Assembly (NCBI GenBank): GCA_024239075.1 | Contig: JANBVI010000079.1 | Location: 118,962 to 182,961 of the forward strand | Reading direction: 5' to 3' | Length of the DNA: 64,000 nucleotides | Origin: Fischerella sp. CENA71 | Lineage (GTDB): Bacteria; Cyanobacteriota; Cyanobacteriia; Cyanobacteriales; Nostocaceae | Shown here: positions 1-34,195 of the stretch, piece by piece | How the letters are laid out: each line of letters opens with the position of its first letter | Numbering within the stretch: position 1 is the stretch's first letter | Notes under the pieces: generated by a model | Seen by the model: the letters and a program-made list of their open reading frames with translations, nothing else | Told to the model about the DNA's origin: nothing | Databases searched by the model: none | Translations under genes and position numbers: made by a program

Positions 1-180
1 AGGGACGCGGGGATGGGGGGATGGGGGGAGATGAGGACGCGGGGAGATGGGGACGCGGGGACGCTGGGAGTATAAATGAAAGATTCTCCGTGTCACCGCG
101 TCAGAATATCTCCGTGTCTTCTCAAGCGTCACCGCGTCAGAATATCTCCGCGTCTTCTGAAAGCGCGTCTTCTCATCTGA
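1..180. repeat. G-rich/C-rich palindromic repeat, copy 1 (in UPF0182 N-terminus)
   Basis: The left arm is repeated GGGGACGCGGGGA-type sequence and the right arm is C-rich complementary sequence (CACCGCGTC, TCTCCGTGTC), so the strand can fold into an imperfect hairpin. Related copies lie at about 19813-19986 inside recO and 34100-34195 between genes. Here the repeat is read as the first ~52 residues of the UPF0182 protein. The left boundary lies outside the window. Confidence 0.75.
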
Positions 181-2798
181 AGCTACACCTACTCTTCCCA
201 ACAGTTCTAGGACTGAGTGCGTTAGCAGGATTTATTCTGATTTATTACACTCAAACGGCTTTTGATTTGTGGTTTGGCAATATCAAACTCTTCACTTTAT
301 CTTGGCAACTACCACCCGCATTACAGTTATTTTTACAACTTTTTAACACCGCAGAAATACGTTTACCGATTGTCAATACAGGTTTGCTGGTGGTTTTGGT
401 GATCGCAATTTTGATTAATCATCAGTTTTTTTTAAAAGCGATCGCCCTATTGATTAGCTTGCTATTAGCGTTTTTACTATCAGCACGTTGGGTGCTGGTT
501 TTGCAGTATTTCCAACCTACAAGTTTTAACAGTACAGACCCTCTTTTTCACAAAGATATTAGTTTTTATATATTCTCTCTACCAATTTGGGAGCTATTAA
601 AATTTTGGTTGCTAGGACTTTTTTTATACAGTCTAGTCTCTGTAACATTAATTTATTTGCGTTCGTCTAATAGCTTGAGTGAGGGTTGGTTTCCAGGCTT
701 TTCTGTACGGCAGCGACTCCATTTAAACGCCTTAACAAGTTTGCTGATGCTGGTAATCGGCTGGCATTATTGGTTGTTGCGCTACGAACTTTTATATTCT
801 AAGCGTGGCTTTAATTTTGGTGCTAGCTACACAGAAGTCAAGGTACAGTTACCAATTTATACTGGACTGAGTTTATTGGCGGTAGCGATCGCATTTTACT
901 TACTGTGGCGAATATATATTTTATCTAGACGGAAAAAAGTCAGATTAAGACCAATTCCCTTCCCCCGCCAACTAGTCTACTTGCTCGTATTGTACCTAGT
1001 AGTAGCAGGGGTTTCTGGCGAAATCTTGCCCACAATTGTACAGCGCTTTTTTGTCCAACCCAATGAATTAGCCCAGGAAAGACCTTATATTGCTCGTACA
1101 ATTGCTTTCACCCGCAAAGCATTTAAATTAGATGCGATCGACGCGGAAACTTTTGATCCACGAGGTCAATTGACAGCAGCTGACTTAAAGGAAAATCAGC
1201 AAACAATTGGTAATATCCGTTTGTGGGATACCCGTCCTTTGTTAGAAACTAATCGTCAGTTGCAACAAATTCGACCGTATTATAAGTTTCCTGGTGCTGA
1301 TATTGACCGCTATACTTTATTGCGAAACCTTCAAAATAAAACAACAGAATATCAACAAACCATTATTGCAGCAAGGGAACTAGATTATGGTGATGTTCCG
1401 CAGCAGGCGCAAACTTGGATAAACCAACATTTAGTTTACACTCACGGTTACGGTTTTACACTTAGTCCAGTAAATCTTGTTGGCCCCGGTGGATTACCCT
1501 ATTACTACGTTAAAGATATTGGTGTTGAAGATACACCTAGTCAAGGAGCTTTACAAATTACCACAGAAGAAATTCGTGTCAGTGTTCCCATTACCCAACC
1601 ACGCATTTATTACGGGGAAATTACTGACACTTACGTGATGACTGGAACAAGAACCCAAGAATTAGATTATCCCAGTGGTAACGAGAATGTCTATAACGTC
1701 TACGATGGGGGGGGCGGAATTTCTATTGGTGCGATGTGGCGGCGGTTGCTGTTTGCTCAATATCTCAAAGATTGGCAAATGCTACTGACGCGCAACTTTA
1801 ATTCTCAAACCAGATTATTATTTCGTCGCAACATTCGAGAAAGGGTACAAGCGATCGCGCCTTTTTTACATTTTGACAGTGATCCCTACTTAGTTGCTGC
1901 GGATGGGGGAGGGACAACTCTTACAGGTAAATCAACAGACCTTTACTGGATAATTGATGCTTACACCACAAGCGATCGCTATCCCTACTCTGATGCTGGG
2001 AAAAATCCATTTAATTACATTCGTAATTCCGTCAAAGTTGTTGTTGATGCCTACAATGGCACAGTAGATTTCTATATTGCTGATCCCACAGATCCAGTCA
2101 TCACAACTCTGGGGAACATTTTTCCTCAGATGCTCAAACCTCTGGAAGCTATGCCAGCTGCACTGCGTAGTCATATTCGTTACCCAGGAGATTTTTTTAG
2201 CATTCAATCAGAACGCCTGCTGACATATCACATGATCGATCCACAGGTGTTTTATAATCGGGAAGATTTATGGGAAATACCGACAGAAATTTATGGGAGC
2301 GAACAGCAATCGGTAGAACCATACTACCTAATCATGAAATTGCCACAAGCACAAACAGAAGAGTTTATTTTACTGTTACCTTTTAAGCCCAACCAACGTG
2401 CAAATTTAATTGCTTGGTTAGCAGCACGTTCTGATGGCGATAACTACGGCAAATTGTTACTATATGAATTTCCTAAACAATTATTAGTCTACGGAACTCA
2501 ACAAATTGAAGCATTAATAAACCAAGATCCGGTAATTTCTCAACAGATTACTCTCTGGAACCGTGAAGGTTCAAAAGTAGTTCAAGGAAATCTTTTAGTT
2601 ATTCCTATTGAGCAATCTCTTTTATATGTTGAACCCTTATATTTGGAAGCAGAACAAAATAGTTTGCCAACATTTGTCGCAGTCATTGTTGCCTACGAAA
2701 ATAAAATTGTGATGGCAGAAACTTTAGAACAAGCATTTGCTGCTATCTTTCAGCCAGAGAAACCAGCTTCACCGACAATTATACGACCTGTGGAGTGA
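21..2798 (+). CDS. UPF0182 family membrane protein
   Basis: Large integral membrane protein of the UPF0182 (COG1615) family, which is widespread in cyanobacteria and actinobacteria and has no proven function. The N-terminal third holds about seven hydrophobic segments, beginning near residue 57 ([15 protein letters not shown]). A long soluble, probably extracytoplasmic, C-terminal part follows with the family's typical stretches rich in Tyr, Pro and Gly (around [14 protein letters not shown]). At 925 residues the length is normal. The first ~52 residues are low-complexity (RGDAGS..., RFSVSPRQ) and encoded by a palindromic repeat, so they are unlikely to belong to the original protein. ATG at 21 is the first start seen, but the frame is open to the window edge, so the true start could lie upstream. 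No operon partner: the next gene, psbA, follows after 353 bp. Confidence 0.85.
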
Positions 2799-3151
2799 GG
2801 GCAGGAAGCAGAAAGATGTGTATGCCTGTGGCGCTTGTTTCCTCTGAGAAAAAGAGAGCGATCGCTTTTGATAATACAAATATACTATAAATCTTAAGTA
2901 AACATCCACAAAGGATTGCAAAGATATTTGACTCATTCGTAAGTATTACTAACAATTTTTTTTAGAATATATAGAGAATATTCTCAAGATTTAATAACTC
3001 TGAATCTCAGCCATTAAAACACTAACTGGTACCAGAATTTGCCAATACGAAATATACAGATTTAACTGCACAAAAAAACTGGAATATTGCGTGTTTAACT
3101 CATTTTCAAAAATTAATTAAGTACATTCTCTTTTCAGAGGAGGCATAAACG
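2799..3151 (+). promoter_or_regulatory. psbA upstream region and ribosome binding site
   Basis: Gap of 353 bp between the UPF0182 gene and the D1-type gene, AT-rich in its second half, with no coding potential seen. A strong Shine-Dalgarno sequence GAGGAGG lies at 3137-3143, eight bases before the ATG at 3152. The promoter must be in this gap, but I cannot place -35/-10 boxes with confidence. One HIP1 octamer lies near 2858. Confidence 0.5.
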
Positions 3152-4222
3152 ATGACGACAATCATTCAACGTCGAAAAGAATTTGATTTTTCCAATCTAT
3201 GGGATCGATTTTGCGCGTGGATTACCAGCACTAACAATCGGGTTTACATTGGCTGGTTTGGGGTGCTGATGATTCCTACTTTGCTTGCTGCTACTATTTG
3301 TTTCATTCTCGCTTTTATTGTTGCCCCTGGTGTAGATATGGAAGGTATTAGAGAGCCAATTAAAGGTTCTTTGATAGATGGCAACAATTTGATTAGCGCT
3401 GGTGTTGTGCCAACTTCTGCTGCGGTTGGCTTGCATTTTTATCCTATTTGGGAAGCTGCTTCCTTAGATGAATGGCTTTATAACGGCGGTCCCTATCAGT
3501 TGATCGTACTGCACTTTTTAATTGGTATTTGGTGCTATTTGGGAAGACTTTGGGAACTAAGCTATCGCCTTGGTATGCGTCCTTGGATTGCCGTTGCTTT
3601 TTCTGCAAATGCCGCCGCCGCAACAGCTGTTTTGCTAGTTTACCCCATTGGTCAAGGTAGCTTTGCTGACGGTTTACCTTTGGGAATTGCAGGGACATTC
3701 CACTTTATGATGGCTGTGCAAGCAAATCATAATATCCTGATGCATCCGTTTCATATGTTGGGGGTTGCTGGAGTCTTTGGTGGCGCATTTTTAAGTGCCT
3801 TGCATGGTTCTTTAGTCACCTCAACCCTGATTCGCAATACCGACGAAAATGAATCTATCAACGCTGGGTATCAACTTGGTCAACAGCAAAGGACTCACAG
3901 CTACTTGGCAGGGCATTATGGTTTTTTAGGTCGCCTGCTCATTCCCCCTTTTGCTAGTCGAAATCACCGCAGTTTTTATTTCCTGCTAGCTGCCTTGCCA
4001 ACAATAGGTATTTGGTTTGCTGCATTAGGTCTTTGTTCTGTAGCTTTTAACTTAAATGGCTTTAACTTCAATCACTCTATCTTGGATAGTGGGGGTGCAG
4101 TGATTCCCACAAATGCTGATATCCTCAATCGAGCTAATCTTGGCATACAAGCAATGCACGCTCCTAATACCCATCATTTCCCACTGATTCTGTCTAGCGG
4201 TACACCAATTTCAGTAAGTTGA
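3152..4222 (+). CDS. psbA: Rogue (sentinel-type) photosystem II D1 protein
   Basis: 356-residue D1 homologue with the five-helix core and long conserved stretches ([41 protein letters not shown]). TyrZ (Y164 = standard Y161), its partner H193 (H190), D173 (D170), the chlorophyll ligand H201 (H198) and the non-haem iron ligand H218 (H215) are kept. Several oxygen-evolving ligands are not: standard E189 is N192, E333 is A337, D342 is I346, and the C-terminal A344 is replaced by Ser within a different tail. H332 is kept (H336). The second D1 ligand to the non-haem iron, H272, aligns with Y276. This fits the 'rogue' or sentinel D1 group, thought to build PSII unable to evolve oxygen, possibly to protect nitrogenase. 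Leu-Gly occupies the place where ChlF (chlorophyll f synthase) is reported to carry Gln-Asp, so ChlF is unlikely. Residue numbers rest on manual alignment. Confidence 0.9.
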
Positions 4223-4356
4223 AAAATTGAAAGTTTCCTTGTAATCCGTCCTTTGCTTAGATTTTACAGGGGCGGTTTTTTTAAGTTAAGCTAAAACCTG
4301 CTTTTTTGGTTTCCGATGCAAGTGCAACCCACCAGTATAATTTGTATAAAAGATAA

Positions 4357-4396
4357 AACCCCAAAGCATAAGCACTTTGAGGGTTAGATTTTATTT
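4357..4396 (+). terminator. Possible psbA terminator
   Basis: Imperfect stem AACCC/GGGTT plus AAAG/CTTT with a small internal loop and an 8-base loop, followed by a T-rich stretch (AGATTTTATTTT). It lies 135 bp beyond the psbA stop on the same strand. Confidence 0.4.
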
Positions 4397-4560
4397 TATA
4401 TTCAAGGTCTTTATATAAGCTGACCTCGTTTTGTTACAAAAAGTAAACTGCTATTTAGATTCTCATCAAATTAGTTAAATTTTGTAATCTTTAATATTTT
4501 CTTAAGCTTTTAAATTTAATATTTTCTTTAGATTGTTCACGATAACCGACACAAATGAAA

Positions 4561-4585
4561 CCCCGGTTGTAAACCGGGGCTTTTG
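4561..4585 (+). terminator. Strong hairpin before the 73-residue gene
   Basis: Perfect 8-bp stem CCCCGGTT/AACCGGGG with loop GTA, then CTTTTG. Flanking A and T tracts extend the pairing. It ends 54 bp before the GTG start at 4639, so it could be a late terminator after psbA or an attenuator for the next gene. The 416-bp gap from 4223 holds nothing else that I recognise. Confidence 0.6.
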
Positions 4586-4638
4586 TCAATGTCAGCTATT
4601 GTAATTTTGCTGTAAGCTGTCGCAATGGGGTAAGTGCT

Positions 4639-4860
4639 GTGAACGCATCAACATTACGTCAACTTTGGTCTTTAATAGAAGACACTCAGACCAATATTCT
4701 TTTAGAAGTCAACGACGCGGAACTAATTCAACAGTTGCTAAGGCGACTGGAAAACCAAAAACTACTCAGTAGTGAAGAGATGAAAGTCATCCGTGCCTAT
4801 ATTAGCTCTAGACTCCCGTTAATTAGGGATTTGGCGATGGTGAGAAGAGGTTGTACTTGA
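4639..4860 (+). CDS. Small conserved cyanobacterial protein, unknown function
   Basis: 73 residues, soluble, largely helical and amphipathic (LRQLWSLIEDTQTNILLEV, then AELIQQLLRRLENQ), with a regular charged pattern that looks like a real folded protein rather than a chance frame. I think similar small proteins occur across Nostocales, but no function is known to me. The start is GTG at 4639; no clear Shine-Dalgarno precedes it. It is transcribed toward the patU-hetZ cluster, ending 300 bp from it convergently. A strong hairpin just upstream may control it. Confidence 0.6.
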   Translation: MNASTLRQLWSLIEDTQTNILLEVNDAELIQQLLRRLENQKLLSSEEMKVIRAYISSRLPLIRDLAMVRRGCT

Positions 4861-5160
4861 GTTGTTGGTTGTTGGTATAAATAAATCTGCGAGAAACCCT
4901 ATCCTTTGGGAATGTCTACCCTGCGGGAAGCTAACGCAACAACGAACGAGTTCGCCTGGTGCTTTATGGTAAGTACCCGTCCACTGCACTGGCTCACCGC
5001 TAGCGCGTATACGCGAACGCAGTTGCACCCAAACGGCGTCTACATGGGGATCTCATATCAATTTATCAATTCTTCAAAAGACGGCTACAGATGATGACGC
5101 AAAGACGCGGAGATTGATCTGTTGCGAGATTATAGAGAATTGGTATCACAACACTACAAT
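4861..5160. repeat. Intergenic repeat-rich gap, no gene
   Basis: 300 bp between convergent genes. It contains short fragments typical of Nostocales dispersed repeats (GCGGGAAGCTAACGC, GCTAGCGCGTATACGCGAACGC, GACGCAAAGACGCGGAG). Two short open frames here are made of repeat sequence and show no sign of being genes. Confidence 0.45.
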
Positions 5161-6432
5161 TTATTTTGTTTGTGGTTCAGAGTTTTCGATAGTGAGCCTT
5201 TTGATATGCTGGTCTAAACTTTGCAACAGGTTATTGAGAGCGTTAAAAGTCTCTAGCTGACTAGAGTTAACATTGCGGTTAACTAAAATTCTCTCTTGTA
5301 ACTCATGCAATTTATAGCTGAGTTGTTGAGATATACTTAAGGCATCACGACTAAGACGGGTTAACTGTTGTTGTTGATAAAACTTTAATGCTGCTCCTCG
5401 CAGTACTTGAAGGGTAGCTTCTTCACCGTACATACCTGGCATAACTCGCAAGCGCAATAATAAACGGTCTTGCTGATGTAGACATTCTCTTTCCACTTGT
5501 TTAGGTTCTGCAAGTGTGCTTATAGGGAGCGAACCAAATCTTTTCAACTCATTCATGACTCCCTGAAAGACTGAGAGAGGTACTTTCTCTAATACAGATT
5601 GCAAAACTCCATTTTCACTCCACAAAATTCTGCCTGTGTAAGGTAGTCTTTCTAAATACAACCGACCAATTCCTCCTGCTAAAACCCTACCTAATAATTC
5701 TTCTAATAATTTTTTTGGTGGTAAGGTTAACAGTATTTCTACAGGAGAGAATTCTGCTGTTATTGGTACTGATAAAATCGGCAAGTTACCACTGGTTAGA
5801 ACATGAGAATTATTTTGTTCTGTTTGTTGTGCTTCTGTTGTATTGGGATTTGTAATAACTACAGGATGCAACTGAAGAGTATTTTTACTTGTACTATTTG
5901 CTTCTGAGTTAGGTAAAGAATTTAATTGCAGGTTGTTATTTTCGGTATAAGTCGGGTTTGAATTTGTTGATGATTGCTGAGTGGATATTGATTGCTGTTC
6001 AGGCTGTTCTTGAGTTGCTGAGTGAGATGTATTTTTATAGTTTAGGTAAGATGAAAGTATTTTGCGGTGAATATCGCCTGTAATCGTTTCAGGTACTAAT
6101 GTACAGTTGATGTAAGACAAGATGCGATGAATGTAATCTAATGCCGCACTATCTTCTTGATTAACCATACCTAACAACAAGCTGTTATCTTCCATTTTCA
6201 ATGGCACAACTTGGTGGTATAAGCAAGCTTCAAAGGACAGAAAACTCTCGATCAGCTGGAATACTTGCTCGCGTTCTATTCCTTGCTTCCATAGTATTTT
6301 TGTATCAGATGACACTTGTTGTTGTTCAGTAAACTCAGTATCGGTTGATTTGCCCTTTGAAGACAACATAGGCTTAGATTGCTTGGTATTTCTATATCCT
6401 ATTCTGCCCCTAAACGTTTTGGCAGTAAACAA
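5161..6432 (-). CDS. patU: PatU-type heterocyst patterning protein
   Basis: 423-residue protein directly downstream of hetZ on the same strand. An N-terminal domain (about residues 50-130, LWKQGIEREQVFQLIESFLSF) and a C-terminal domain (about 230-415, with ILLTLPPKKLLEELLGRVLAGGIGRLYLERL) are joined by a Gln/Ser/Asn-rich linker of ~100 residues. In Anabaena PCC 7120 these parts are described as two genes, patU5 and patU3, beside hetZ; in Nostoc punctiforme as one gene, patU. The single-gene layout here matches the latter. PatU3 works with HetZ in heterocyst patterning. The start is uncertain: the frame opens with TTG at 6432 and the first ATG is at 6369; neither has a good Shine-Dalgarno. The call leans on position and architecture. 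Confidence 0.7.
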   Translation of the reverse strand: MFTAKTFRGRIGYRNTKQSKPMLSSKGKSTDTEFTEQQQVSSDTKILWKQGIEREQVFQLIESFLSFEACLYHQVVPLKMEDNSLLLGMVNQEDSAALDYIHRILSYINCTLVPETITGDIHRKILSSYLNYKNTSHSATQEQPEQQSISTQQSSTNSNPTYTENNNLQLNSLPNSEANSTSKNTLQLHPVVITNPNTTEAQQTEQNNSHVLTSGNLPILSVPITAEFSPVEILLTLPPKKLLEELLGRVLAGGIGRLYLERLPYTGRILWSENGVLQSVLEKVPLSVFQGVMNELKRFGSLPISTLAEPKQVERECLHQQDRLLLRLRVMPGMYGEEATLQVLRGAALKFYQQQQLTRLSRDALSISQQLSYKLHELQERILVNRNVNSSQLETFNALNNLLQSLDQHIKRLTIENSEPQTK

Positions 6433-6637
6433 ATCATAATATTTAGATAAATAAAAGTTAAATTAGCTACAAATCAGCCAAAACTTAATCTGGATTCAAC
6501 ATCGAAAACACTTAACTGTATAAATGGCTAGCAGTTGGTAGTCTTTCTTGCTTATCGTTGGGAGTAACTAACTCTACAGTTGTGTAGTAGTGGGAAACTC
6601 CCTATTGTGCAATTAACAACCAACAATCATGCATATT

Positions 6638-7822
6638 CTAATCTTCGCTTCTCAAGGTCTGAGCTATCAAGTAGACTTTAGTCCATTCACCCATTGCTTG
6701 ATGGGTTTTGAGTTTTAATTTTTTCGCTATCTCTTCTATACTGTTGCCTGCTCGTCGTAGTTCTAGAACCTGTCGCTGAGTTGGGGTCAATTTTTCATGC
6801 AATTGCTGAAGTTGAGTTGGTGTCAGTCCCAGATTATGCTCTTTTAATGATGTTTGTAGCCAAGATTCGACTAGTTCTGGTTTGTCTTTGAGAGCAAACA
6901 CACGCACTGCGTGGTAGCTAACTTTTTCTCGTAACCGATAAATTACATTGATTGGCTTACCTAATTTTCTGGCGATCGCATCTTGGGATTGACCTTGTAA
7001 GTATAGCCGTAACCAATCTACTGCTTCTTGTCCAAGGTTTTCTAGTAAATAACTTTCAAAGTCATTTTGTACTGATTGTCGCAGGGTTTGTTGTTCTTCT
7101 TGTTCTTGTGCTTCTTGATATTCTGCGATCGCTTGGGTGTCTACTAAGTTTACCCGGTTATCGCTGTCATCAGTGAGGATCTCTTCTGAGACTAGTCTCA
7201 CCATATCCCCACCAGGTACTTGAGTTAAGCCACCGCGCTGGGTACGACGTAAATAATTCACAAATCGGTAAACTAGCAGAGGTTGATTACGTACTGGTCG
7301 TAGGCAATATTCCTCTACACTGGCAAATAGCAGGGCGCTGCGTAAGCGGGGATCGGTGGTAAATTCTGAGATAAAAGCCATTTGCTGTTGCATGTAGTTA
7401 TCGCTTTGCAGCAGTTCTTGAATAACTTCTTGCAAGACATCCAAAACTGAGCGTTGGCGATCGCGACTCAGAGCCACCCATGTCTGAATTTTATTGCGTA
7501 ATGTGACTAGACTTCCCAAGCGAGTCAGTAAATTCTTATAAGCAACTTCTCGTCCTTTACCCAAATAACGCTGATTTAAAATCTTCCAGCGATATTCCAT
7601 TGCTTGTTTGAGAATATCTGATTGTTTTGGATCTTCAAATCGCTGTTGATTGCTGCCTAATAGCCAGCGAACAATGCTTTCTTTACTAGCTGTGGGTTGT
7701 TCTGGACACTCAACTTCCAGCCGTTTACGCCAAAACTGTGCTATTTTATCCGCTTCAGAAGCCATAGTGAGATTGCGCCCTCCGAAACCCTGTTTTAAAG
7801 TTTGCTGCATCACAACCTCCAT
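6638..7822 (-). CDS. hetZ: Heterocyst differentiation protein HetZ
   Basis: 394 residues, close to the ~400 of Anabaena HetZ. The protein is helical, with a central region SRDRQRSVLDVLQEVIQELLQSD and two helix-turn-helix-like segments near the C-terminus: QSQDAIARKLGKPINVIYRLREKV and TPTQRQVLELRRAGNSIEEIAKKL, the latter resembling sigma-region-4/LuxR-type helices. HetZ is a DNA-binding regulator acting early in heterocyst differentiation, under HetR. Two starts are possible: ATG 7822 (GAGG six bases upstream) and ATG 7810 (GGAGG five bases upstream, giving MQQTLKQ); I report the longer. PatU follows after 205 bp on the same strand. HetZ also occurs in some non-heterocystous filamentous strains, so it alone does not prove heterocysts. 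Confidence 0.85.
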   Translation of the reverse strand: MEVVMQQTLKQGFGGRNLTMASEADKIAQFWRKRLEVECPEQPTASKESIVRWLLGSNQQRFEDPKQSDILKQAMEYRWKILNQRYLGKGREVAYKNLLTRLGSLVTLRNKIQTWVALSRDRQRSVLDVLQEVIQELLQSDNYMQQQMAFISEFTTDPRLRSALLFASVEEYCLRPVRNQPLLVYRFVNYLRRTQRGGLTQVPGGDMVRLVSEEILTDDSDNRVNLVDTQAIAEYQEAQEQEEQQTLRQSVQNDFESYLLENLGQEAVDWLRLYLQGQSQDAIARKLGKPINVIYRLREKVSYHAVRVFALKDKPELVESWLQTSLKEHNLGLTPTQLQQLHEKLTPTQRQVLELRRAGNSIEEIAKKLKLKTHQAMGEWTKVYLIAQTLRSED

Positions 7823-9403: not shown

Positions 9404-9453
9404 GGCTCGACTCTCCAAATGTTTGGGCAGATGTGATATTTATTCTACGATGC

Positions 9454-19224: not shown

Positions 19225-20229
19225 ATGAGTAAGACATATAAAGCAACTGGTATTAATCTTAAAACTCAGGCTTTTGGTGAATCGGATCGACTTGTGACAG
19301 TTTTGACACAAGAATTTGGGCTGATTCGTGCGATCGCTCCTGGTTCTCGCAAACACAACTCTAGCTTGGGTGGTAGGAGTGCAATGTTTGTAGTTAATGA
19401 ATTATTGATTGCCAAGGGGCGATCGCTCGATAAAATTACACAAGCACAAACTATAAAATCTTACCCACGTCTAGCTCAGGATCTGGTAAAATTAGTATCC
19501 AGCCAATACTTAGCCGAAATTGCACTCTGTCAGGCATTAAGTGAACAACCCCAAGTAGAATTATATGATTTACTAAATGAACATCTCGAACGCATAGAGA
19601 ATTTACCTAACACAGATACATCTGGTGTTGTAGCCTATCTAACACATGGTGTATTTCAGCTTTTAGCTTTGGCGGGATTGACGCCACAAGTACAAATTTG
19701 TTGTTTAACTGGACGCACTTTGAAACCAGATTTTCAAGATCCCAACTCGCGAGTCGGATTTAGTGTAAGTGCTGGTGGAACTGTTTGTTTAGCTGCTTGG
19801 GAACGCCTGAAGAAGGACACGGAGACATGGGGACATGGAGACATGGGGACGCGGGGACGCGGGGACACGGAGAGTACTGTTGATAGATTCTCCGCCTCCC
19901 CGCGTCCTAAACTCTGTGCGTCCTCACAAGCGTCACCACCTCCCAAACTCTCCGCGTCTGCAAAAGTTGCGTCTTCCTCCCAAGCCTACGAAACTATCAC
20001 CCATCGCCAAGAAATACCAACCCTTTCTAAGCGTTTGGATGCTGAAGAATTGACCATACTCCAGCAGCTGTCGCAATCAGAGATAATGCTAAATGCAGCC
20101 GAAAAAAATAGCTGGTTATCTGTTGAGCAAATTTTGCGTCAGTATGCTCAGTATCATTTTGGTCGTCCTATTCGCTCTGCTGCCTTGATTGACTCTTATT
20201 TTGCTGCTAACCATGATGCAATCGTCTGA
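19225..20229 (+). CDS. recO: DNA repair protein RecO, with in-frame repeat insertion
   Basis: 334-residue RecO, which helps RecR load RecA onto SSB-coated single-stranded DNA. The N-terminal OB fold ([39 protein letters not shown]) and the helical domain ([23 protein letters not shown]) are intact, as is the C-terminal part ([21 protein letters not shown]). The zinc-finger region is reduced to CCLTGR and VCLAAWE. Residues ~197-254 ([34 protein letters not shown]) are a palindromic repeat inserted in frame, which explains the length above the usual ~270-290. The gene overlaps the next (MFS) by 14-17 bp, suggesting co-transcription. The ATG lies in a repeat and has no clear Shine-Dalgarno. Confidence 0.9.
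19813..19986. repeat. G-rich/C-rich palindromic repeat, copy 2 (in recO)
   Basis: Left arm ACGGAGACATGGGGAC and GGGGACGCGGGGAC units, centre GAGTACTGTTGATAGATTC, right arm CTCCGCCTCCCCGCGTCC and CTCTCCGCGTCT. It is a whole number of codons with no stop, so recO stays open. The translated product aligns with the UPF0182 N-terminus (copy 1): [16 protein letters not shown] against [16 protein letters not shown], the same reading frame in both. Confidence 0.85.
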
Positions 20230-23365: not shown

Positions 23366-23374
23366 TAAATAAAC

Positions 23375-26642: not shown

Positions 26643-27413
26643 ATGAATCAATTATTAACAGCAAACGAAGTTCGCCAACTTTGCCGCCATGGAAAATATC
26701 AAGCTCCAACTCCTGGACTTGCATCTGGATACGTGCAGGCTAATTTAGTCATCTTACCTAAGTCTGTTGCTTTTGACTTTATGTTGTTCTGTCATCGCAA
26801 CCCCAAACCTTGTCCTTTATTGGATGTCACGGAAGTTGGAAATCCTGAACCCCGCATGATTGCGCCTGGTGCTGATATTAGATCAGATTTACCTCGTTAC
26901 CATGTGTTTCGTAATGGTGAACTAGTAGAAGAAGTTACAGATATCAAAGAATTGTGGCGTGATGATTTTGTCAGTTTTTTGATTGGTTGTTCGTTTTCCT
27001 TTGAAGCGGCCCTGTTGAGTGCGGGTGTACCTGTGAGACATATTGAGGAAGGCAAAAATGTACCGATGTATAAAACTAGTCTGAATTGTATGTCAGCTGG
27101 GGTATTTTCTGGGCCTTTAGTAGTTTCCATGCGTCCTTTGTCGCCTGCTGATGCTATTCGTGCGGTAAACATTACTAGTCGTTTTCCAAAATCACATGGT
27201 GCGCCAGTACATTTAGGCGATCCGAGTGCGATCGCGATCGCAGATATCAATTCTCCTGATTTTGGTGATCCTGTTACCATTCGAGAAGGCGAAATTCCTG
27301 TATTCTGGGCTTGTGGTGTGACAACGCAAACAGCAATAGTTCAAGCGAAACCAGAGATCGCAATCACTCATGCTCCTGGACATATGTTTATCACCGATAT
27401 GAAAGATGAATGA
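26643..27413 (+). CDS. DUF1445 protein (hydro-lyase/D-glutamate cyclase N-terminal part)
   Basis: 256-residue protein of the DUF1445 family. Landmarks are PTPGLASGYVQANLVILPK, FCHRNPKPCPLLDVTEVGNPEP, FLIGCSFSFEAALL and the C-terminal FWACGVTTQ...HAPGHMFITD. In vertebrate D-glutamate cyclase (DGLUCY), which converts D-glutamate to 5-oxo-D-proline, a DUF1445 domain is fused to a DUF4392 domain; here the DUF4392 gene follows with an 8-bp overlap. The two products probably work together, although the bacterial reaction is unproven and other DUF1445 members are annotated as putative hydro-lyases. Confidence 0.85.
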   Translation: MNQLLTANEVRQLCRHGKYQAPTPGLASGYVQANLVILPKSVAFDFMLFCHRNPKPCPLLDVTEVGNPEPRMIAPGADIRSDLPRYHVFRNGELVEEVTDIKELWRDDFVSFLIGCSFSFEAALLSAGVPVRHIEEGKNVPMYKTSLNCMSAGVFSGPLVVSMRPLSPADAIRAVNITSRFPKSHGAPVHLGDPSAIAIADINSPDFGDPVTIREGEIPVFWACGVTTQTAIVQAKPEIAITHAPGHMFITDMKDE

Positions 27414-28374
27414 ATCTTCTATAAAAATGGGAGAAAGGCTAAAGATTAAAGAAAAAGAAATCATCAATAAAATTGCTCAACTAGAATCTATTTGTGGGCA
27501 AGATGTTGGTAGAGGAATTCAACCTCTAGTGGAAGCAACTAGGGGAGGACTACTCAAAACCGCTCGTTCGATCGCAGAACATCCAAAACCTCACGTAGCA
27601 ATTCTTACAGGTTTTTTTCTTCCTTATGGTAATCCTCCTGCACCCGAAACGGATGGCCCAATTGGCTGTGCATTGTTAGCAGCAGGATTAATGAGAGTGG
27701 GTATATCCGTAAGAATTGTCACTGACTCTCTTTGTTTTCGTACCATCAAAATAGCAGTGCAAGCAGCTGGAGTTACTGCTGAAATTCCCTTTGATATTGT
27801 GCCAGTAGAGGCGACAAAAAATCAGCAAGCGGTTTCTTCACTGCTGAACTTGTGGGAATCTTTAGAAACACCTGTTTCTCATCTTATTTCTATCGAAAGA
27901 CCAGGCCCTAGTTATGATGGTATTGTCCGCAACATGCGAGGACAAGATATCACAGCTTATACAGCACCTCTACACCTTCTATTTGCATCAAAAAACATCA
28001 TTACAGTGGGGATTGGGGATGGTGGAAATGAGTTAGGAATGGGCAATATTCCTAAAGATGTGATTCGTCAACATATTCGGCATGGTGAAAAAATAGCTTG
28101 TATTGTTAATTGTGATTATTTAATAGTTTGTGGTGTGTCTAATTGGGGAGCAACTGGTTTATTAACTGCTTTATCTTTACTTCGTGCTGATTGGAAATTT
28201 GCAATTAATTCTGGGTTAAATTCAGAAACCGAGTTTTATATTTTGGAATCAATTGTTAAGTATGGCCCTGCAATTGACGGTATTAAAGGAGTTCCTAGCC
28301 TTTCTGTTGATAATTTACCTTTTGAATATCATGCCCATATTATGAAAATTGTGACTCAATTAATGAATGATTAG
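27406..28374 (+). CDS. DUF4392 protein (D-glutamate cyclase C-terminal part)
   Basis: 322 residues, matching the DUF4392 half of D-glutamate cyclase. The segments GIQPLVEATRGGLLKTA, VAILTGFFLPYGNPPAPETDGPIGCALLAAGL, IERPGPSYDGIVRNMRG and TVGIGDGGNELGMGNI form a nucleotide- or acid-binding-like fold. The start ATG 27406 overlaps the DUF1445 stop by 8 bp, so the two are translationally coupled; ATG 27427 is an alternative. No signal peptide, so cytosolic. Together the two genes should produce the equivalent of the fused eukaryotic enzyme. Confidence 0.85.
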   Translation: MNESSIKMGERLKIKEKEIINKIAQLESICGQDVGRGIQPLVEATRGGLLKTARSIAEHPKPHVAILTGFFLPYGNPPAPETDGPIGCALLAAGLMRVGISVRIVTDSLCFRTIKIAVQAAGVTAEIPFDIVPVEATKNQQAVSSLLNLWESLETPVSHLISIERPGPSYDGIVRNMRGQDITAYTAPLHLLFASKNIITVGIGDGGNELGMGNIPKDVIRQHIRHGEKIACIVNCDYLIVCGVSNWGATGLLTALSLLRADWKFAINSGLNSETEFYILESIVKYGPAIDGIKGVPSLSVDNLPFEYHAHIMKIVTQLMND

Positions 28375-28380
28375 ACGCGA

Positions 28381-28461
28381 TTATACTCTTACGAGTCATT
28401 TGTCATTGGTCAATGGTAGAGACGCGATTATACTCTTGCGAGCGTCTACGCGTCTCTACAA
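28381..28461. repeat. Palindromic repeat cluster after the DUF4392 gene
   Basis: Two related units: one ends ATTATACTCTTACGAG, the other GTAGAGACGCGATTATACTCTTGCGAGCG with TACGCGTCTCTAC nearby, so parts can pair. A heptamer stretch (GTCATTGGTCAATGG) separates them. Same family as the palindromes at 15078 and 45179. Confidence 0.6.
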
Positions 28462-28503
28462 TAATCATAATTTTTAATTGTTTTGTCCCCAATCCCCATC
28501 ACC

Positions 28504-29364
28504 TTAACTTTTGATTTTTTCCCACTCTGCTAATATCCTTTCTCCTTCGCGACAAAGTATTTCATGAAATTGACCGTTACTAGCTAATAATCCACCCCAT
28601 TGATTAATATCTCCAGTGTTGTATTGTAATGGTCTGCCATCGAAGTGAGTGAACTGACCACCTGCTTCTGTTAAGATTAATTCGGGTGCAGCCATGTCCC
28701 AATCTTTGGGTGCAGATTTGCCAGAAAGAGAAATATAAATATCTGCCTGTTGTTCTACAATAGTTGAAATTTTGCAGCCGACACTACCGACAGCTTTTTG
28801 ATTTTGGCAAGGTAAATTTTGTAGCAAATATTCTAGTCTGTCGTTGCGATGGGAACGACTGACAACTAGGGTTAAATCTTCGATGCGTTCTCGTGATGAT
28901 ACTTTTAAAGGGGTAGTTTGGCGATCGCGATTTTCTACAAATGCTCCGCCTCCTTTAGTCGCATAGTATAATTTTTCTTGCTCTGGAACTACTACCACTG
29001 CTAACATTGGGCGATGTTCCTGCACTAGGGCAAGGTGAATGGCATACTCGCCAGTCTTTTCGATAAAATCTCTTGTACCATCCAAAGGATCAATGATCCA
29101 TGACCATTGAGAATTTGAGTGCTTGGTTTGTTGCTTTTTATAAGTTTCTTCACTAATATAGGCAAAATCTTCATTCCCCAAAGCTGCTTGCAACTTTTCC
29201 AAAATGAAGTGATTGACAGCTAAATCAGCAGCAGTAACAGGATCACTATCTTTATACTGTACGTCTAAATTTTTGTGAGTTCCATGGTAGTAAGTCCGCA
29301 GTATATCTGCTGCATCCCAACCAACAGAACGAGTGAGTTCAAGTATTTGTTTTAAGTCTGGCAT
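28504..29364 (-). CDS. cysQ: 3'(2'),5'-bisphosphate nucleotidase / inositol monophosphatase family
   Basis: 286-residue lithium-sensitive Mg2+ phosphatase. Family motifs: SEE in YISEETYKK, WIIDPLDGTRDFIE (metal-binding DPLDGT), and WDMAAPELILTEAGGQF near the C-terminus (WDxAA). The length and the RDFIE sequence favour CysQ-type, which hydrolyses 3'-phosphoadenosine-5'-phosphate produced in sulfate assimilation, over inositol monophosphatase. Cytosolic. It lies 50 bp downstream of a PfkB sugar kinase gene on the same strand, so the two could be one transcript, though no shared pathway is obvious. Confidence 0.85.
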   Translation of the reverse strand: MPDLKQILELTRSVGWDAADILRTYYHGTHKNLDVQYKDSDPVTAADLAVNHFILEKLQAALGNEDFAYISEETYKKQQTKHSNSQWSWIIDPLDGTRDFIEKTGEYAIHLALVQEHRPMLAVVVVPEQEKLYYATKGGGAFVENRDRQTTPLKVSSRERIEDLTLVVSRSHRNDRLEYLLQNLPCQNQKAVGSVGCKISTIVEQQADIYISLSGKSAPKDWDMAAPELILTEAGGQFTHFDGRPLQYNTGDINQWGGLLASNGQFHEILCREGERILAEWEKIKS

Positions 29365-29414
29365 TAATTTTGTCCTATATTCTTTGGGGGTTTGACATTC
29401 TCCCCTAAACCATA

Positions 29415-30284
29415 TTATTGAAAAGATTCCATCCAGCGACGTGTGCCAAAAAATTGACAGGAAAAAGCAGCTATTTTCGCTGCTGATGCTAGTGCATCAG
29501 GAAAATTTTCTCGCAATAGGTAATGACAAAAAGCACCGTGGAAAATATCTCCAGCCCCCAGTGTATCAACAGCAGCAGTTTTTGGCACGTCTATCAAACC
29601 ACTTACACCTGTTTCCTGTATAAGATACTGAATTGGTTTTTCACCGTGGGTAATGGCGATGTGAGGAATACCAAGTTGAAGCAGATAGTTAAAGACTTCC
29701 TCCTCAGTCTGACAATTGGGAGGATGAAAATTAGCAGAACAAATGGCGTAATCTACAAAAGGTAAAAGTTTGTCAAAACCAGGTTTCCAACTACCACCAT
29801 CTACGACAACAGGAATATTGTTAGCTTTTGCTATTTGAGCTATTTCTATTCCGACTGTCATTTGATGTCCGTCAATGAGGACAATATCAACATTTTGTAA
29901 AATATCTGCTGGGATAGCTTGGCTATTAGCTTGAGTTTTGACAGCATTGATCGAAACTACCGCCCGTTCGCCACTAGCTTGCGTAACAATAATAGAAGAA
30001 ACTGGCGGTGGATTAGTTGTTGTGGAATCAAGATCAGTGATTTCTACTTGATATTTTTGTAAGTCTCCACGAATCAAATGTGTCATCGGGTGACAACCTA
30101 CTATACCCAACACTTTAGATTGATTTCCCAAATAGCTAAAAGCAACAGCAGCATTGGTAGCAGGGCCACCTGCGGCAACAGTATAATCAGCAGCAACTAT
30201 TTTTTGATTATTTTGAGGGGGAGATTGAGCAAGGTAAATTAGATCGAGGGTTATTAAACCTACAAATAAGGCATAATTGGTCAT
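29415..30284 (-). CDS. PfkB-family carbohydrate kinase
   Basis: 289 residues of the ribokinase/PfkB fold. The N-terminal substrate motif is VAAGGPATNAAVAFSYLG and the C-terminal anion-hole motif is DTLGAGDIFHGAFCHYLL, with catalytic Asp in GAGD, so the kinase should be active on a sugar or nucleoside. The specific substrate cannot be read. The start at ATG 30284 lies in a heptamer-like stretch (AAATGACCAATTATG). It is divergent from rsmI, 74 bp away, and upstream of cysQ on the same strand. Confidence 0.82.
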   Translation of the reverse strand: MTNYALFVGLITLDLIYLAQSPPQNNQKIVAADYTVAAGGPATNAAVAFSYLGNQSKVLGIVGCHPMTHLIRGDLQKYQVEITDLDSTTTNPPPVSSIIVTQASGERAVVSINAVKTQANSQAIPADILQNVDIVLIDGHQMTVGIEIAQIAKANNIPVVVDGGSWKPGFDKLLPFVDYAICSANFHPPNCQTEEEVFNYLLQLGIPHIAITHGEKPIQYLIQETGVSGLIDVPKTAAVDTLGAGDIFHGAFCHYLLRENFPDALASAAKIAAFSCQFFGTRRWMESFQ

Positions 30285-30358
30285 TTGTCATTTGTTATTA
30301 GTTGTTTGTTCCAACCAAGCATCAACCATCAACCATCAATCATCAACAAAGTTTTTTC

Positions 30359-31210
30359 ATGCAAACTGATCCAAAACCAGGAATACTCTACATCGTCGCT
30401 ACACCGATTGGCAATTTGGAAGATATGACTTTTCGGGGAGTGCGAATTTTACAAATGGTGGATCTGATTGCGGCTGAAGATACACGCCATACGGGAAAGT
30501 TGCTACAGCATTTTCAAATTAAGACACCACAAATTAGTTACCACGAACATAATCGTAATAGCCGTATTCCAGAATTATTACAGCATTTGGGTGAGGGTAA
30601 AGCGATCGCTTTGGTGACAGATGCGGGTATGCCAAGTATTTCTGATCCTGGGTTTGAATTAGTTAAAGCCTGTATTGACGCTCAAATCTCTGTAGTACCA
30701 ATTCCCGGTGCAAATGCTGCTATTACGGCATTGAGCGCAGCAGGATTACCAACAGATAAGTTTGTGTTTGAAGGATTTTTACCAGCGAAAACTCAAGGGC
30801 GACGAGAGCATTTAGAATTTTTGAAGACAGAACCCCGCACTTTAATTTTCTATGAATCTCCCCATCGGTTACTAGATACTTTACAAGATTTAGCAGATAT
30901 TTTTGGCAGCGATCGCCAAATCGTTTTAGCGCGGGAGTTAACTAAATTGTATGAGGAATTCTGGCGGGGAACCCTAGCCCAGGCCCTTTCTAATTATGAT
31001 GAAAAGGAACCTCAAGGAGAATACACTTTAGTTGTAGCAGGAAACCCAGCCACCGAACTGGTGCTATCGGAAGTAGAATTAAAAGCTGAATTAACAAAAC
31101 TCATTGTACAGGGAATGTCGCGATCGCAAGCTAGCCGAGAGTTAGCAAAAGCAACTTCCCTACCCCGCCGTCAACTTTATCAACTAGCTCTTGCTATAGA
31201 GATTAATTAG
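30359..31210 (+). CDS. rsmI: 16S rRNA (cytidine-1402-2'-O)-methyltransferase
   Basis: 283 residues from ATG 30359. The family's opening is present, GILYIVATPIGNLEDMTFRGVRIL, followed by AAEDTRHTGKLLQHF, VTDAGMPSISDPG (SAM-binding), PIPGANAAITALSAAGL and FEGFLPAKTQGRR, and a long C-terminal helix segment. It methylates the ribose of C1402 in 16S rRNA. The open frame runs on to 30302 through repeat-like sequence (ATCAACCATCAACC), which is not part of the protein. The next gene downstream, rpsU, also concerns the 30S subunit. Confidence 0.92.
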   Translation: MQTDPKPGILYIVATPIGNLEDMTFRGVRILQMVDLIAAEDTRHTGKLLQHFQIKTPQISYHEHNRNSRIPELLQHLGEGKAIALVTDAGMPSISDPGFELVKACIDAQISVVPIPGANAAITALSAAGLPTDKFVFEGFLPAKTQGRREHLEFLKTEPRTLIFYESPHRLLDTLQDLADIFGSDRQIVLARELTKLYEEFWRGTLAQALSNYDEKEPQGEYTLVVAGNPATELVLSEVELKAELTKLIVQGMSRSQASRELAKATSLPRRQLYQLALAIEIN

Positions 31211-31353
31211 GGAACGGGGAAGGGGAAAAAGTCAAAAGTCAAAATTTAAAAATTTCTTAATTATGCCCAATGTCCCATGCCCAATCCCCAATCCCCAATT
31301 CCCAATAGCCATTACAATGGGATAAATATTGATAATGAGAATGAGGACAAAGA

Positions 31354-31533
31354 ATGACCCAGGTGGTTTTAGGAGAGAATGAAGGAATAGAGTCAGCTCT
31401 GCGGCGCTTTAAGCGCCAGGTTTCCAAAGCTGGCATTTTGGCTGATGTAAAATATCATCGGCATTTTGAAACACCTTTAGAAAAACGCAAACGCAAAGCA
31501 GTAGCTGCTAGACGTAAGCGGCGTTTTAAATAA
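31354..31533 (+). CDS. rpsU: 30S ribosomal protein S21
   Basis: 59-residue, very basic small-subunit protein: [20 protein letters not shown], then a Lys/Arg-rich end ([19 protein letters not shown]). The length and the N-terminal VVLGENE plus RRFKR pattern are diagnostic of bS21. Start ATG 31354 is preceded by GAGGACAAAGA. rsmI ends 143 bp upstream on the same strand, with a repeat-like gap of CCAATCCC units. Confidence 0.93.
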
Positions 31534-31624
31534 AAAATCGGCACTGACGTTGCTTGACAAGATTAATGTTAAAACAGCTACAGAGCCTCCGTTATCATTT
31601 TGAAAAAAAATAAGCAAGAAAAAT

Positions 31625-31643
31625 CACCCCTGAAATAGGGGTG
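31625..31643 (+). terminator. Hairpin after rpsU
   Basis: Perfect 7-bp stem CACCCCT/AGGGGTG with loop GAAAT, 92 bp after the rpsU stop. No T-run follows, so it may be an mRNA 3' structure or a weak terminator. The rest of the gap to 31832 shows no gene. Confidence 0.45.
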
Positions 31644-31832
31644 TAAAGTATATAGACTTGCCAAGTTACGGAGCGCGCCGAGTGTCCGATCGCGGTTAGA
31701 TGGAGCAAGCTAATTGCTGCCCATCAACCCAATCATCAAACAAGACAACAAAAGACTGTGTAAGGGCTAGTATTTAGCACAGCCTCATATTTTAAGAACT
31801 CAATTTAAGAAGAAATATTCCCTTATTACCTA

Positions 31833-32486
31833 TTACTTAACATGATCAGGCTCAGGATAGACAAGCCCATTGCTGTTACAACGGTTCATCGCTTTTTCTA
31901 CTCCTTGTTTGAGGCATAATTCTACGCATTCACAGACAAAGTTTAATACCTCAGAAACAAACTTAGTTTCATTTGTGGAAAACTTTCCTAATACATAAGA
32001 CACAGTGTTTTCTTCATCGCCGTTAGTACCATTTTTAGGTCTACCAATACCGATACGTAGGCGAGGAAAATTTTGTGTTCCCAAATGTGCGATCGCACTC
32101 TTCATTCCGTTATGTCCGCCAGCAGAACCAGACAACCGCAGACGAGTTTTCCCAAGAGGTAAATCCATCTCATCATAAATAACTAACACAGACTCAGGCG
32201 GTAACTTGTACCAACTCGTGACAGCTTGTATAGCCTGTCCAGAACGATTCATATAAGTGAGTGGCTTCAGCAAGCGGATTTTGTCTTTTGTTGGTGCGAT
32301 ACCTTCACCGTACTCACCTTGAAACTTGCGATTTTCAGCCAGAGGAATCTGCCAAGAACGGGATAGAACATCTAAAGCGGCAAAACCAATATTATGGCGT
32401 GTTTGATCATACTTTGGCTCTGGATTCCCCAACCCAACAATTAATTGGGGAATCACCAAAGTTGTTTTGGCAGTAGCTTCTGTCAT
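31833..32486 (-). CDS. pth: Peptidyl-tRNA hydrolase
   Basis: 217 residues from ATG 32486. It releases peptidyl groups from stalled peptidyl-tRNA. Landmarks are LIVGLGNPEPKYDQTRHNIGF (catalytic His in RHNIGF), TYMNRSGQAI, VIYDEMDLPLGKTRLRLSGSAGGHNGMKSAI (catalytic Asp in YDEMD, His in GGHNG) and RLRIGIGRPKNG. The frame reaches TTG 32498 but ATG 32486 is preferred. It is 86 bp downstream of tatA on the same strand; the C-terminal tail of ~30 residues after the core is a little longer than in E. coli. Confidence 0.93.
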   Translation of the reverse strand: MTEATAKTTLVIPQLIVGLGNPEPKYDQTRHNIGFAALDVLSRSWQIPLAENRKFQGEYGEGIAPTKDKIRLLKPLTYMNRSGQAIQAVTSWYKLPPESVLVIYDEMDLPLGKTRLRLSGSAGGHNGMKSAIAHLGTQNFPRLRIGIGRPKNGTNGDEENTVSYVLGKFSTNETKFVSEVLNFVCECVELCLKQGVEKAMNRCNSNGLVYPEPDHVK

Positions 32487-32539
32487 TGGGAATATCAAGT
32501 ATGAAGTGTAAAATGAGCAAACAGTAAACAGTTATTAAC

Positions 32540-32567
32540 TGATAACTGATAACTGATAACTGATAAC
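32540..32567 (+). repeat. Tandem heptamer TGATAAC x4
   Basis: Four perfect units between pth and tatA, the same heptamer as at 23324-23365. Confidence 0.9.
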
Positions 32568-32572
32568 TGGCT

Positions 32573-32821
32573 TTACGCTTCTTCCTTTTTAGGCGCTTCT
32601 AATTGCTTTGGTTCGAGTTCAGCAGTAGTTTTGACGGCTGCTTCTATCTGAGCGGCTTCTTTTTGAAACTCATTTTGAAATTCCTTAGAAGCGTCTTGGA
32701 AACCGCGAATCGCTTTTCCCATACTCCGACCAATTTCTGGCAATTTCTTTGGACCAAATATTAACAGCGCCACAACCATAATTACAGCCATTTCCGGTAA
32801 ACCAATACCAAATACGTTCAT
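32573..32821 (-). CDS. tatA: Twin-arginine translocase subunit TatA/E
   Basis: 82-residue component of the twin-arginine translocation channel, which exports folded proteins across thylakoid and plasma membranes. A single N-terminal transmembrane helix (GLPEMAVIMVVALLIFGPKKLPEIGRSMGKAIRGFQ) carries the FGPKKLPE hinge, followed by an amphipathic helix and a Glu/Lys-rich tail, exactly as in TatA. The ATG at 32821 has AGGAG upstream (GTAAGT not used). It is followed by pth on the same strand. Confidence 0.93.
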   Translation of the reverse strand: MNVFGIGLPEMAVIMVVALLIFGPKKLPEIGRSMGKAIRGFQDASKEFQNEFQKEAAQIEAAVKTTAELEPKQLEAPKKEEA

Positions 32822-32886
32822 TTGTGCTTTCTCCTGTAAGTTGAAGAACCCAAAGTCCTACAAATTTAGTTTAAGTGGAGCCAATT

Positions 32887-32934
32887 CAAAATCCAAAATC
32901 CAAAATCTAAAATCCAAAATCTAAAATCCAAAAT
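32887..32934. repeat. Heptamer repeat CAAAATC/TAAAATC
   Basis: Seven units of AAAATC preceded by C or T, just upstream of tatA (on its 5' side). The same type occurs at 60971-61000. Confidence 0.85.
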
Positions 32935-32960
32935 TGTCTGACTCCGTGTAGCGTTGACAA

Positions 32961-32981
32961 AAAAACCCGGACTAACCGGGT
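32961..32981 (-). terminator. Rho-independent terminator of psbH
   Basis: On the minus strand, the stem ACCCGG/CCGGGT with loop TTAGT is followed by TTTTTTT. It lies 42 bp after the psbH stop on the same strand. A clear intrinsic terminator. Confidence 0.8.
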
Positions 32982-33022
32982 ACGGAAGCGTAAAGCTTAT
33001 GTATCAGTTAATAGACAAAGCT

Positions 33023-33211
33023 CTACCAACCGACTCTGACATCTTGGATAATAATTGACTTGTTATAAAGTTGCAGAATAATCAGCAGAAACACGAAAAA
33101 CAGGCCCATAAAAACAGCCATCACAGGAGTAGTACCCCAACCTGGGGCAACTTTACCGTATTCAGAGTTCAAGGGTCTGAGGATATCTCCTAACCGCGTC
33201 CGTTGTGCCAT
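33023..33211 (-). CDS. psbH: Photosystem II reaction centre protein H
   Basis: 62-residue single-TM protein ([34 protein letters not shown] and a helix [14 protein letters not shown]). It sits near CP47 and is needed for stable PSII assembly. The [11 protein letters not shown] segment before the helix is diagnostic. The ATG 33211 follows GGTGAGAT. It is divergent from psbN, 85 bp apart, the standard cyanobacterial and plastid arrangement; a strong terminator closes the gene. Confidence 0.95.
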
Positions 33212-33296
33212 ATCTCACCTTAAGATAGTTGCCAAAGCATTTTTTAATCTTCTGTAATATTCTATAAGAATAGCACTCATAATCCATCCCTAAATT

Positions 33297-33428
33297 ATGG
33301 AACCCGCAACAGTTCTTAGCATTTCCGTTGGTGCAGTTGTGATCGTCATCACAGCTCTATCTATTTACACTGCTTTTGGGCCTCCCTCTAAGCAGTTGAG
33401 CGACCCGTTTGAGGATCATGAAGATTAG
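33297..33428 (+). CDS. psbN: Protein PsbN
   Basis: 43-residue single-TM protein (MEPATVLSISVGAVVIVITA, then AFGPPSKQLSDPFEDHED). PsbN is needed for PSII assembly rather than being a stable subunit. It reads opposite to psbH, the classic arrangement. The C-terminal PSKQLSDPFEDHED is diagnostic. Confidence 0.95.
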   Translation: MEPATVLSISVGAVVIVITALSIYTAFGPPSKQLSDPFEDHED

Positions 33429-33440
33429 ACAGAGAATATA

Positions 33441-33462
33441 GGCTAGGGGTAAAATCCTAGCC
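33441..33462 (+). terminator. Hairpin after psbN
   Basis: Perfect 7-bp stem GGCTAGG/CCTAGCC with 8-base loop GGTAAAAT, 13 bp after the psbN stop. There is no T-run after it, so termination efficiency is doubtful. Confidence 0.5.
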
Positions 33463-33565
33463 GCGATCGCCAACCTCATCCCAAATAAGAATCAATCTAC
33501 CGACTGATCTATAGCATCAGCATTTTATACCATTTGACATACTAAGTACTGAAGAATTATATTTT

Positions 33566-33994
33566 TTATTCTTGCAATTGTTGTGCTAAAAGTTTTTCCA
33601 AAAGATTCAATAAACTATCAACATCCTGACCAATTTGTTGAAAACAATTTGGTGGTGCTGGTTGTGGTTCAAAATGAATCAGCTTGATTTGATCTTTACC
33701 AATACCAACCATCACAACTTCAACTTCTGGTTGATAATGTTCTATAATTCCAAGAACTTCCTGAAGCCTATTTTCAACATTATCATTTAATTTTTCTATC
33801 GCTTCTTTGGGACAATAAACAAAATGCGGTTGAGGTTGCAAATCAATACCGATAGTACCCTGACTGTTACCATTTTCTAACCATAAACCCCAAGCCAGCG
33901 CGCCTAATTCTTGCTGATGTGCTTTCACAAATTGATCTAATTGGCGACGCCATTTATTATCAGGTGATTCTGGTTGGGTAGTAGCGAAGATCAT
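33566..33994 (-). CDS. Conserved cyanobacterial protein, possible carboxysome chaperone CcmS
   Basis: 142 residues from ATG 33994 (MIFATTQPES), the likely start; the frame extends upstream to 34105 through non-conserved sequence. It is soluble, with a helical N-terminus (RRQLDQFVKAHQQELGALAWGLWLENG), strands (TIGIDLQPQPHFVYCPKEAIEKLN) and a helical C-terminus. I know this as a conserved cyanobacterial family, and I think it has been named CcmS, an assembly chaperone that binds CcmK1 in beta-carboxysomes, but this is from memory. The neighbours (psbN, an ABC exporter) give no help. If right, it is the third carboxysome-related locus in the window. Confidence 0.6.
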   Translation of the reverse strand: MIFATTQPESPDNKWRRQLDQFVKAHQQELGALAWGLWLENGNSQGTIGIDLQPQPHFVYCPKEAIEKLNDNVENRLQEVLGIIEHYQPEVEVVMVGIGKDQIKLIHFEPQPAPPNCFQQIGQDVDSLLNLLEKLLAQQLQE

Positions 33995-34099
33995 ATTAAT
34001 TCTGGATTTTGGATTTGGATTTTGAATTCTCAAAAAACATAATCTCACCCACAAGCACAAAAGTGCAAAGTTTTTTGACTTCTTGCAGAAGTCAGAGCA

Positions 34100-34195
34100 A
34101 AGCAAAAAGGGAAGGGAGACAAAGGGGACAAGGGAGACACGGGGAAACGGAGAATATTTTTGATTGATTCACCGCGTCTCCCACTCTCAGTTCTC
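34100..34195. repeat. G-rich/C-rich palindromic repeat, copy 3 (intergenic)
   Basis: GGGAGACAAAGGGGACAAGG, ACACGGGGAAACGGAGAATA, then TTGATTGATTC, then CACCGCGTCTCCCACTCTCA. Same arms and centre as copies 1 and 2, here between the CcmS-like gene and the ABC exporter. It lies on a non-coding stretch. Confidence 0.8.

Follow-up and report, generated by a model that had tools for sequence, protein, structure and literature searches.

The DNA analysed here, a 64,000-nt stretch of a contig of Fischerella sp. CENA71 (the window), raises the question of why one G-rich/C-rich palindrome should be read in the same frame inside two unrelated proteins, and of what kind of element it is. The sequence-only reading had recognized three related copies, and all three are indeed present and strongly self-complementary (Table 1). 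Translation also bears out that the copies in the UPF0182 gene and in recO share their reading frame. The element does not, as had been thought, form the N-terminus of the UPF0182 protein. The gene starts about 240 bp upstream of the window (near L166:1711), the protein begins MNRLFRVIALL..., the insert is internal and a single Pfam match spans it. RNA folding of positions 1-200 of the window gave -87.9 kcal/mol. The third copy lies between two ORFs as claimed but is different in kind, because its loop, GATTGATTCACC, has a stop in the frame used by the copies within genes. A further copy is situated about 290-355 bp before the window, at L166 ~1601-1666 (C79:118608-118673), between a hemA-like ORF (named from its sequence) and the UPF0182 gene. 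An Rfam scan of the window returned no match except the psbN 5' UTR family (RF04353) at 33110-33170.

Table 1. Palindromic elements in the window and the genes that carry them.
Feature	Position (nt)	Strand	Remarks
Palindromic element in UPF0182	1..178 (right end approximate)	+	Core model match ~46-112; starts a few bases before the window
UPF0182 (PF03699) gene	3..2798	+	5' end outside the window; insert after ~80 residues
recO	19225..20229	+	In-frame insert in a linker that is variable among relatives
Palindromic element in recO	19813..19986	+	Core model match ~19850-19916
Intergenic copy	34105..34206	+	Stop-bearing loop subtype; core model match ~34130-34195

The search for further copies recommended in the sequence-only reading uncovered a large family. 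When the recO copy was compared with its own 7.47-Mb genome by blastn, at least 58 matches including itself were obtained (40 of 197 candidates scored). A covariance model built from 27 copies, with 150 of 4,729 candidates scored, produced 150 hits with E <= 1.1e-5. Once 13 overlapping matches are removed, these represent at least 137 distinct loci in this genome, which belongs to the Fischerella/Westiellopsis group. Genome-wide there are 286 occurrences of a 17-base core pattern and none of the same pattern read backwards, used as a control; the abundance of the family is far above chance. No description of it was recognized in the openly licensed PMC papers searched, which is weak evidence of absence.

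Each copy has a G-rich arm built from 8-nt repeats, then a short loop and finally a C-rich arm complementary to the first, the usual form being [GGGGACRC]n - GGRGAAT-loop-ATTCTCC - [CCGCGTCW]n with GGGGACRC as the G-rich unit and CCGCGTCA or CCGCGTCT as units of the C-rich arm. Lengths range from 66 to 299 nt with a median of 111 nt, the bounds being taken from purine/pyrimidine content. Three kinds of loop deserve mention, TTTTTGATAGATTCTCC, ACAGATGAAATACTCTCC and a subtype, seen in 16 copies, that contains GATTGATTC or GATTGGATTC. The ends frequently resemble GAAGAgGACaCGG...CCGCGTCTTCT, with GAAGA-GAC and GTC-TTC recurring, and they are not separately defined since the whole element is a palindrome. 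CGTC is repeated along the right arm and is not a terminal tag. As the unit is 8 nt long, perfect arms encode one cyclic octapeptide in every frame, and the frames can be distinguished only by the loop, the ends and imperfections of the arms. The arms thus yield the low-complexity peptide that had been expected; the loop does not. Runs of GGGGATT/GGGGATC border many non-genic copies, and a second repeat of the CTACAACGGAGG...CCTCCGCAACG type is found within or beside the element at L148, L102, L009 and L156, resulting in nested repeats.

A copy was counted as genic if the frame was open across the element and coding was indicated on both sides, as judged by codon usage learned from 173 long ORFs. 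This test places 56 of the 137 copies in frame within genes, a status derived from our own codon-usage scores and open frames. An early fixed-window screen (47 of 129 in genes) had missed recO and UPF0182 and was replaced by one that gave 51 of 129 and then the present count. A looser test adds six copies, all in frame +2, and even the resulting share of 62/137 stays below the coding share of the window (0.80). Copies that break a gene would count among the others and may be contained in the remaining 75. Fifty-two of the 56 stretches of host sequence have a Pfam match at E <= 1e-5, 51 of them passing a curated cut-off, and in 13 of the 56 a single domain match runs over the element. The hosts identified in this way include recO, two recJ-like genes, recG, tilS, a purL-like and an aspartokinase-like gene, coxB, rsmB, a cobB-like gene, gamma-glutamyltranspeptidase, two P-type ATPases and several histidine kinases with the element in or near the HATPase domain. 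Among the latter, the insert resides in or near HATPase_c in paralogues L154, L119, L159, L168, L118, L112 and L094, in some of them at about the same loop. It was noticed post hoc that four of the 56 hosts are recombination genes, i.e. recO, L047 and L017 (both recJ-like) and L107 (recG), which is reminiscent of the repair genes among the intragenic hosts of REPs reported in parts of PMC3733652.

The orientation of the genic copies is strongly biased, with 47 one way and nine the other (P = 2.6e-7), and so is their frame. Called with a single 30-nt anchor (separate 5' and 3' anchors were noisy, since octamers shift them by 8 nt, and were dropped), 53 of the 56 use the palindrome-symmetric frame, 46 in +2 and seven in -0; taking as reference the frames that are open in the other copies, P is 3.6e-15. 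Frame +2 is used by 46 of the 47 copies in the major orientation and its palindrome partner -0 by seven of the nine in the minor one. Two of the three exceptions (L162 and L029) show the same motif by eye and have an indel near the anchor, leaving L127 as a true exception.

Comparison with relatives reveals both empty and shared sites. Thirteen in-gene sites were compared with up to four congeners. The insert in the P-type ATPase gene L137 is absent from three of four (G001-G003) and that in coxB (L155) from G004, while L033 has an empty site in G001 and G002 and L162 in G001. A further site, in the acyl-CoA dehydrogenase gene L120, is empty in G002. The element of L010 is common to all five genomes. 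In other cases the residue in question is occupied by a different repeat, of Gly-Gly-Gln type: four congeners have it for L042, three for L047 and two for L162. At the purL-like site of L103, two congeners (L427 and L428) hold AATCCAAA-type repeats instead of the palindrome. Where empty sites are clearest, some 10-15 host bases seem to have been replaced, not duplicated, and no target-site duplication is visible at these few places. Gap lengths at 20 further sites in four congeners could be measured in 53 of 80 cells, with at most 15 nt extra in 12; they are rough because the trimmed flanks can contain other repeats, and the values for L148 are unreliable. Two loops have been inverted in place with the frame kept: between L052 and L329 a 23-base loop is exactly reverse-complemented with arms that are not inverted, and the loop of L049 is likewise inverted relative to L432, L433 and L430 of congeners, again with the arms unchanged in direction.

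The two host genes in the window were compared with their counterparts in relatives, as suggested in the sequence-only reading. RecO is present in all 60 genomes searched, its linker varies in all 29 relatives aligned, and the insert is clearly shared only by G004; the linker of G024 has a similar but different insert. The UPF0182 insert is absent from G005, G008, G009, G010 and G020. It is present in four congeners and, in shorter form, in G011 of another genus, and is therefore not recent. An AlphaFold model of RecO with the insert, made from 21 sequences, is poor (mean pLDDT 55.4, pTM 0.50). Residues 205-265, comprising most of the insert, have pLDDT below 50 and no secondary structure, and residues 1-56 also fall below 50, with one helix. 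The model hints that the insert may be disordered.

The inserted peptide is only weakly constrained, judging from codon changes. Across 873 codons of 12 shared inserts, differences at codon positions 1/2/3 number 170/176/211, with 299 nonsynonymous and 105 synonymous changes; the 25 pairs are pooled and all share our own sequence, and poor repeat alignments inflate the nonsynonymous counts somewhat. In the flanks (2,358 codons) the corresponding differences are 125/76/308, with 177 nonsynonymous and 282 synonymous changes.

The reading that we favour and consider likely is that of a dispersed, probably non-autonomous family of mobile palindromes which is tolerated in genes and subject there to a filter on the added peptide beside stop avoidance. 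Copies would land all over the genome, presumably by transposition, and within genes those would survive that sit in a tolerant position and, with a net length divisible by three, do not close the gene. Retention of the palindrome-centred frame (GAG AAT ... TTC TCC) would be due, most likely, to the peptide filter together with avoidance of stops. Such a filter is proposed because the palindrome frame yields the least basic peptide: acidic minus basic residues round the loop of genic copies amount to +0.55 in +2, -0.63 in -0 and -1.1 to -2.4 in the other four frames, a correlation across six frames. The 81 other copies likewise have their least basic peptide in +2 (+0.34), but their -0 (-1.02) is more basic than +0 (-0.71) and hence third. 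Hydropathy did not separate the frames. After insertion the peptide, which is probably translated, drifts under little constraint while the arms gain and lose units; the loop can flip in place without a change of phase, and other G-rich repeat families can take the same site. No transposase was identified when a partner was sought via Y1_Tnp; genome-wide this family has two matches, one of them lying some 0.8 kb away from a copy (C27:428307 and C27:429432).

With regard to the cause of the frame bias, the peptide filter is our first choice. Its main rival, which we regard as possible if rather unlikely, holds that insertion itself fixes both frame and orientation, the element entering a preferred purine-rich target (Glu/Lys codons) in one codon phase. 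The left end of many in-gene copies does read, by eye, Lys/Glu/Gln-Glu-Asp, the left arm consists of four octamers in 28 of the 56 genic copies as against a mode of two (23/81) in the others, and the phase of the loop is almost constant even though arm length varies. However, GAAGA-GAC also terminates several non-genic copies and so seems to belong to the element, not to the target, and the handful of readable empty sites have no target word in common.

It is improbable, in our view, that the inserts are selected for a function as a regulatory mRNA hairpin, a G-quadruplex or a useful peptide. The predicted hairpins are strong and the arms contain G-runs. Furthermore, the coding flanks of the 75 copies called non-genic under the looser test are co-oriented along the element in 21 cases, against it in 10, convergent in 18, divergent in four and unclear in 22, and the excess of convergent over divergent flanks resembles the lean described for REPs in parts of PMC3733652. 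Against a function speak the almost equal changes of inserted codons at the three positions and the fact that several of the sites are empty or filled with other repeats in congeners. We are similarly doubtful about the idea of a loop-diversifying system, in which a pool of invertible, unit-variable palindromes repeatedly fills the same protein loops in a frame readable both ways; if it were true, sister species would have, at one and the same residue, loops of different length, sequence and orientation.

Stop avoidance alone, as opposed to its share in the favoured reading, is very improbable. It would mean that a single frame is open and only that frame survives, much as the sequence-only reading had it in proposing that a repeat persists if it can remain open in one frame. 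Consistent with this, the stop-bearing GATTGATTC loop subtype (the GATTG subtype) is found in 0/56 genic and 16/81 other copies (P = 1.8e-4); of these 16, 14 are closed and two open in +2, but 10 are open in +1. Frame +0, too, is mostly closed, being open in only 12 of the 81 other copies. In the same 81, however, +1, +2, -0, -1 and -2 are open in 39, 40, 36, 19 and 21, respectively, yet +1 is used by at most one of the 56 genic copies. Openness is thus no predictor of the bias, since the counts for +1 and -0 come close to that for +2. A choice of two or more open frames on the gene strand exists in 29 genic copies, and 27 of them take the palindrome frame where 13.3 would be expected (P = 5e-9), and stop avoidance was rejected as the sole cause. 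Least probable of all is that in-place loop inversion selects the frame, on the grounds that only the palindrome-symmetric frame is open in either loop orientation: the palindrome frame was kept in both inversions observed, but upon inversion in silico the used frame is still open in 49 of 56 genic copies and, among the 75 others, +2 in 29/36 and +1 in 24/38, a difference too small to account for the bias, and flip tolerance was rejected as its main cause.

In-frame palindromes are best known from Rickettsia, and intragenic REPs from several other bacteria. The Rickettsia palindromic elements (RPE) and their Wolbachia counterparts are described, in parts of PMC2229807 and PMC10969869, as palindromes of about 105-150 bp that are tolerated in frame in unrelated conserved genes as well as in intergenic positions. 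The resemblance to RPE seen in the sequence-only reading holds for the apparent way of working, with a genome-wide family of comparably long palindromes, in-frame insertion into unrelated conserved genes, a strong preferred frame and empty sites in congeners. The elements themselves probably form a separate, cyanobacterial family. It belongs to another phylum, its arms are built from a variable number of 8-nt tandem G-rich units, and its loops are inverted in place and its sites held by other repeat families in congeners.

Other known repeats are less similar. The GTAG/CGTC-tagged REPs, reported in parts of PMC3733652 also from Anabaena and Nostoc (GTAG type), are likewise dispersed palindromes, some of them intragenic, including in DNA-repair genes, and are often found between convergent or co-oriented genes; unlike the present element, they measure 20-40 bp and carry a terminal tag, whereas no terminal GTAG/CGTC tag has been established here. 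The heptamer repeats of Nostoc and Xanthomonas (GGGNATC) are, according to parts of PMC4692102, quadruplex-forming, arranged as inverted pairs in Xanthomonas and lean away from divergent genes. Tandem G-rich units and the GGGGATT/GGGGATC runs by many non-genic copies recall them, but here the unit has 8 nt, surrounds a conserved loop and is found in many genes. Cyanobacterial MITEs (Nezha; MITEb and MITEe of Anabaena PCC 7120) are presented in parts of PMC10969869 as small inverted-repeat elements, some encoding ORFs; compared by description only, they differ in that no terminal duplication was found here. In the mitochondria of Nematomorpha, inverted repeats lie as coding palindromes in translated genes, and their arms encode conserved host residues (parts of PMC6649704) as opposed to the added, weakly constrained insert seen here.

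Here dozens of copies stand in frame in the genes of a free-living cyanobacterium, sequenced congeners provide sites that are empty or replaced, and stops do not account for the bias in frame. Such a set constitutes a natural experiment on the tolerance of selfish DNA inside proteins, and stretches of repeat-derived peptide in cyanobacterial proteins should be excluded from functional inference.

The covariance model detected the family in 18 of the 60 genomes searched, our own included, most strongly in the five genomes of this genus and in G005; the other 42 gave no match at E <= 1e-4 under stricter filters. In congener G004, 14 of 29 copies (the best 30 loci less one duplicate) are in frame, 10 in +2, three in -0 and one in -1, and some are orthologous to copies in our genome. 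In G005 the number is seven of 25 (the best 30 loci less five duplicates), called automatically as two in +2, two in -0 and three in +1; the latter were judged by eye to have the same phase with a shorter loop. Four records of a plasmid collection match the family as well. The copy on Trichormus variabilis plasmid C lies in frame within an annotated response regulator, and that of Allocoleopsis PCC 7113 is in frame within a DEAD/DEAH helicase adjoining cas3.
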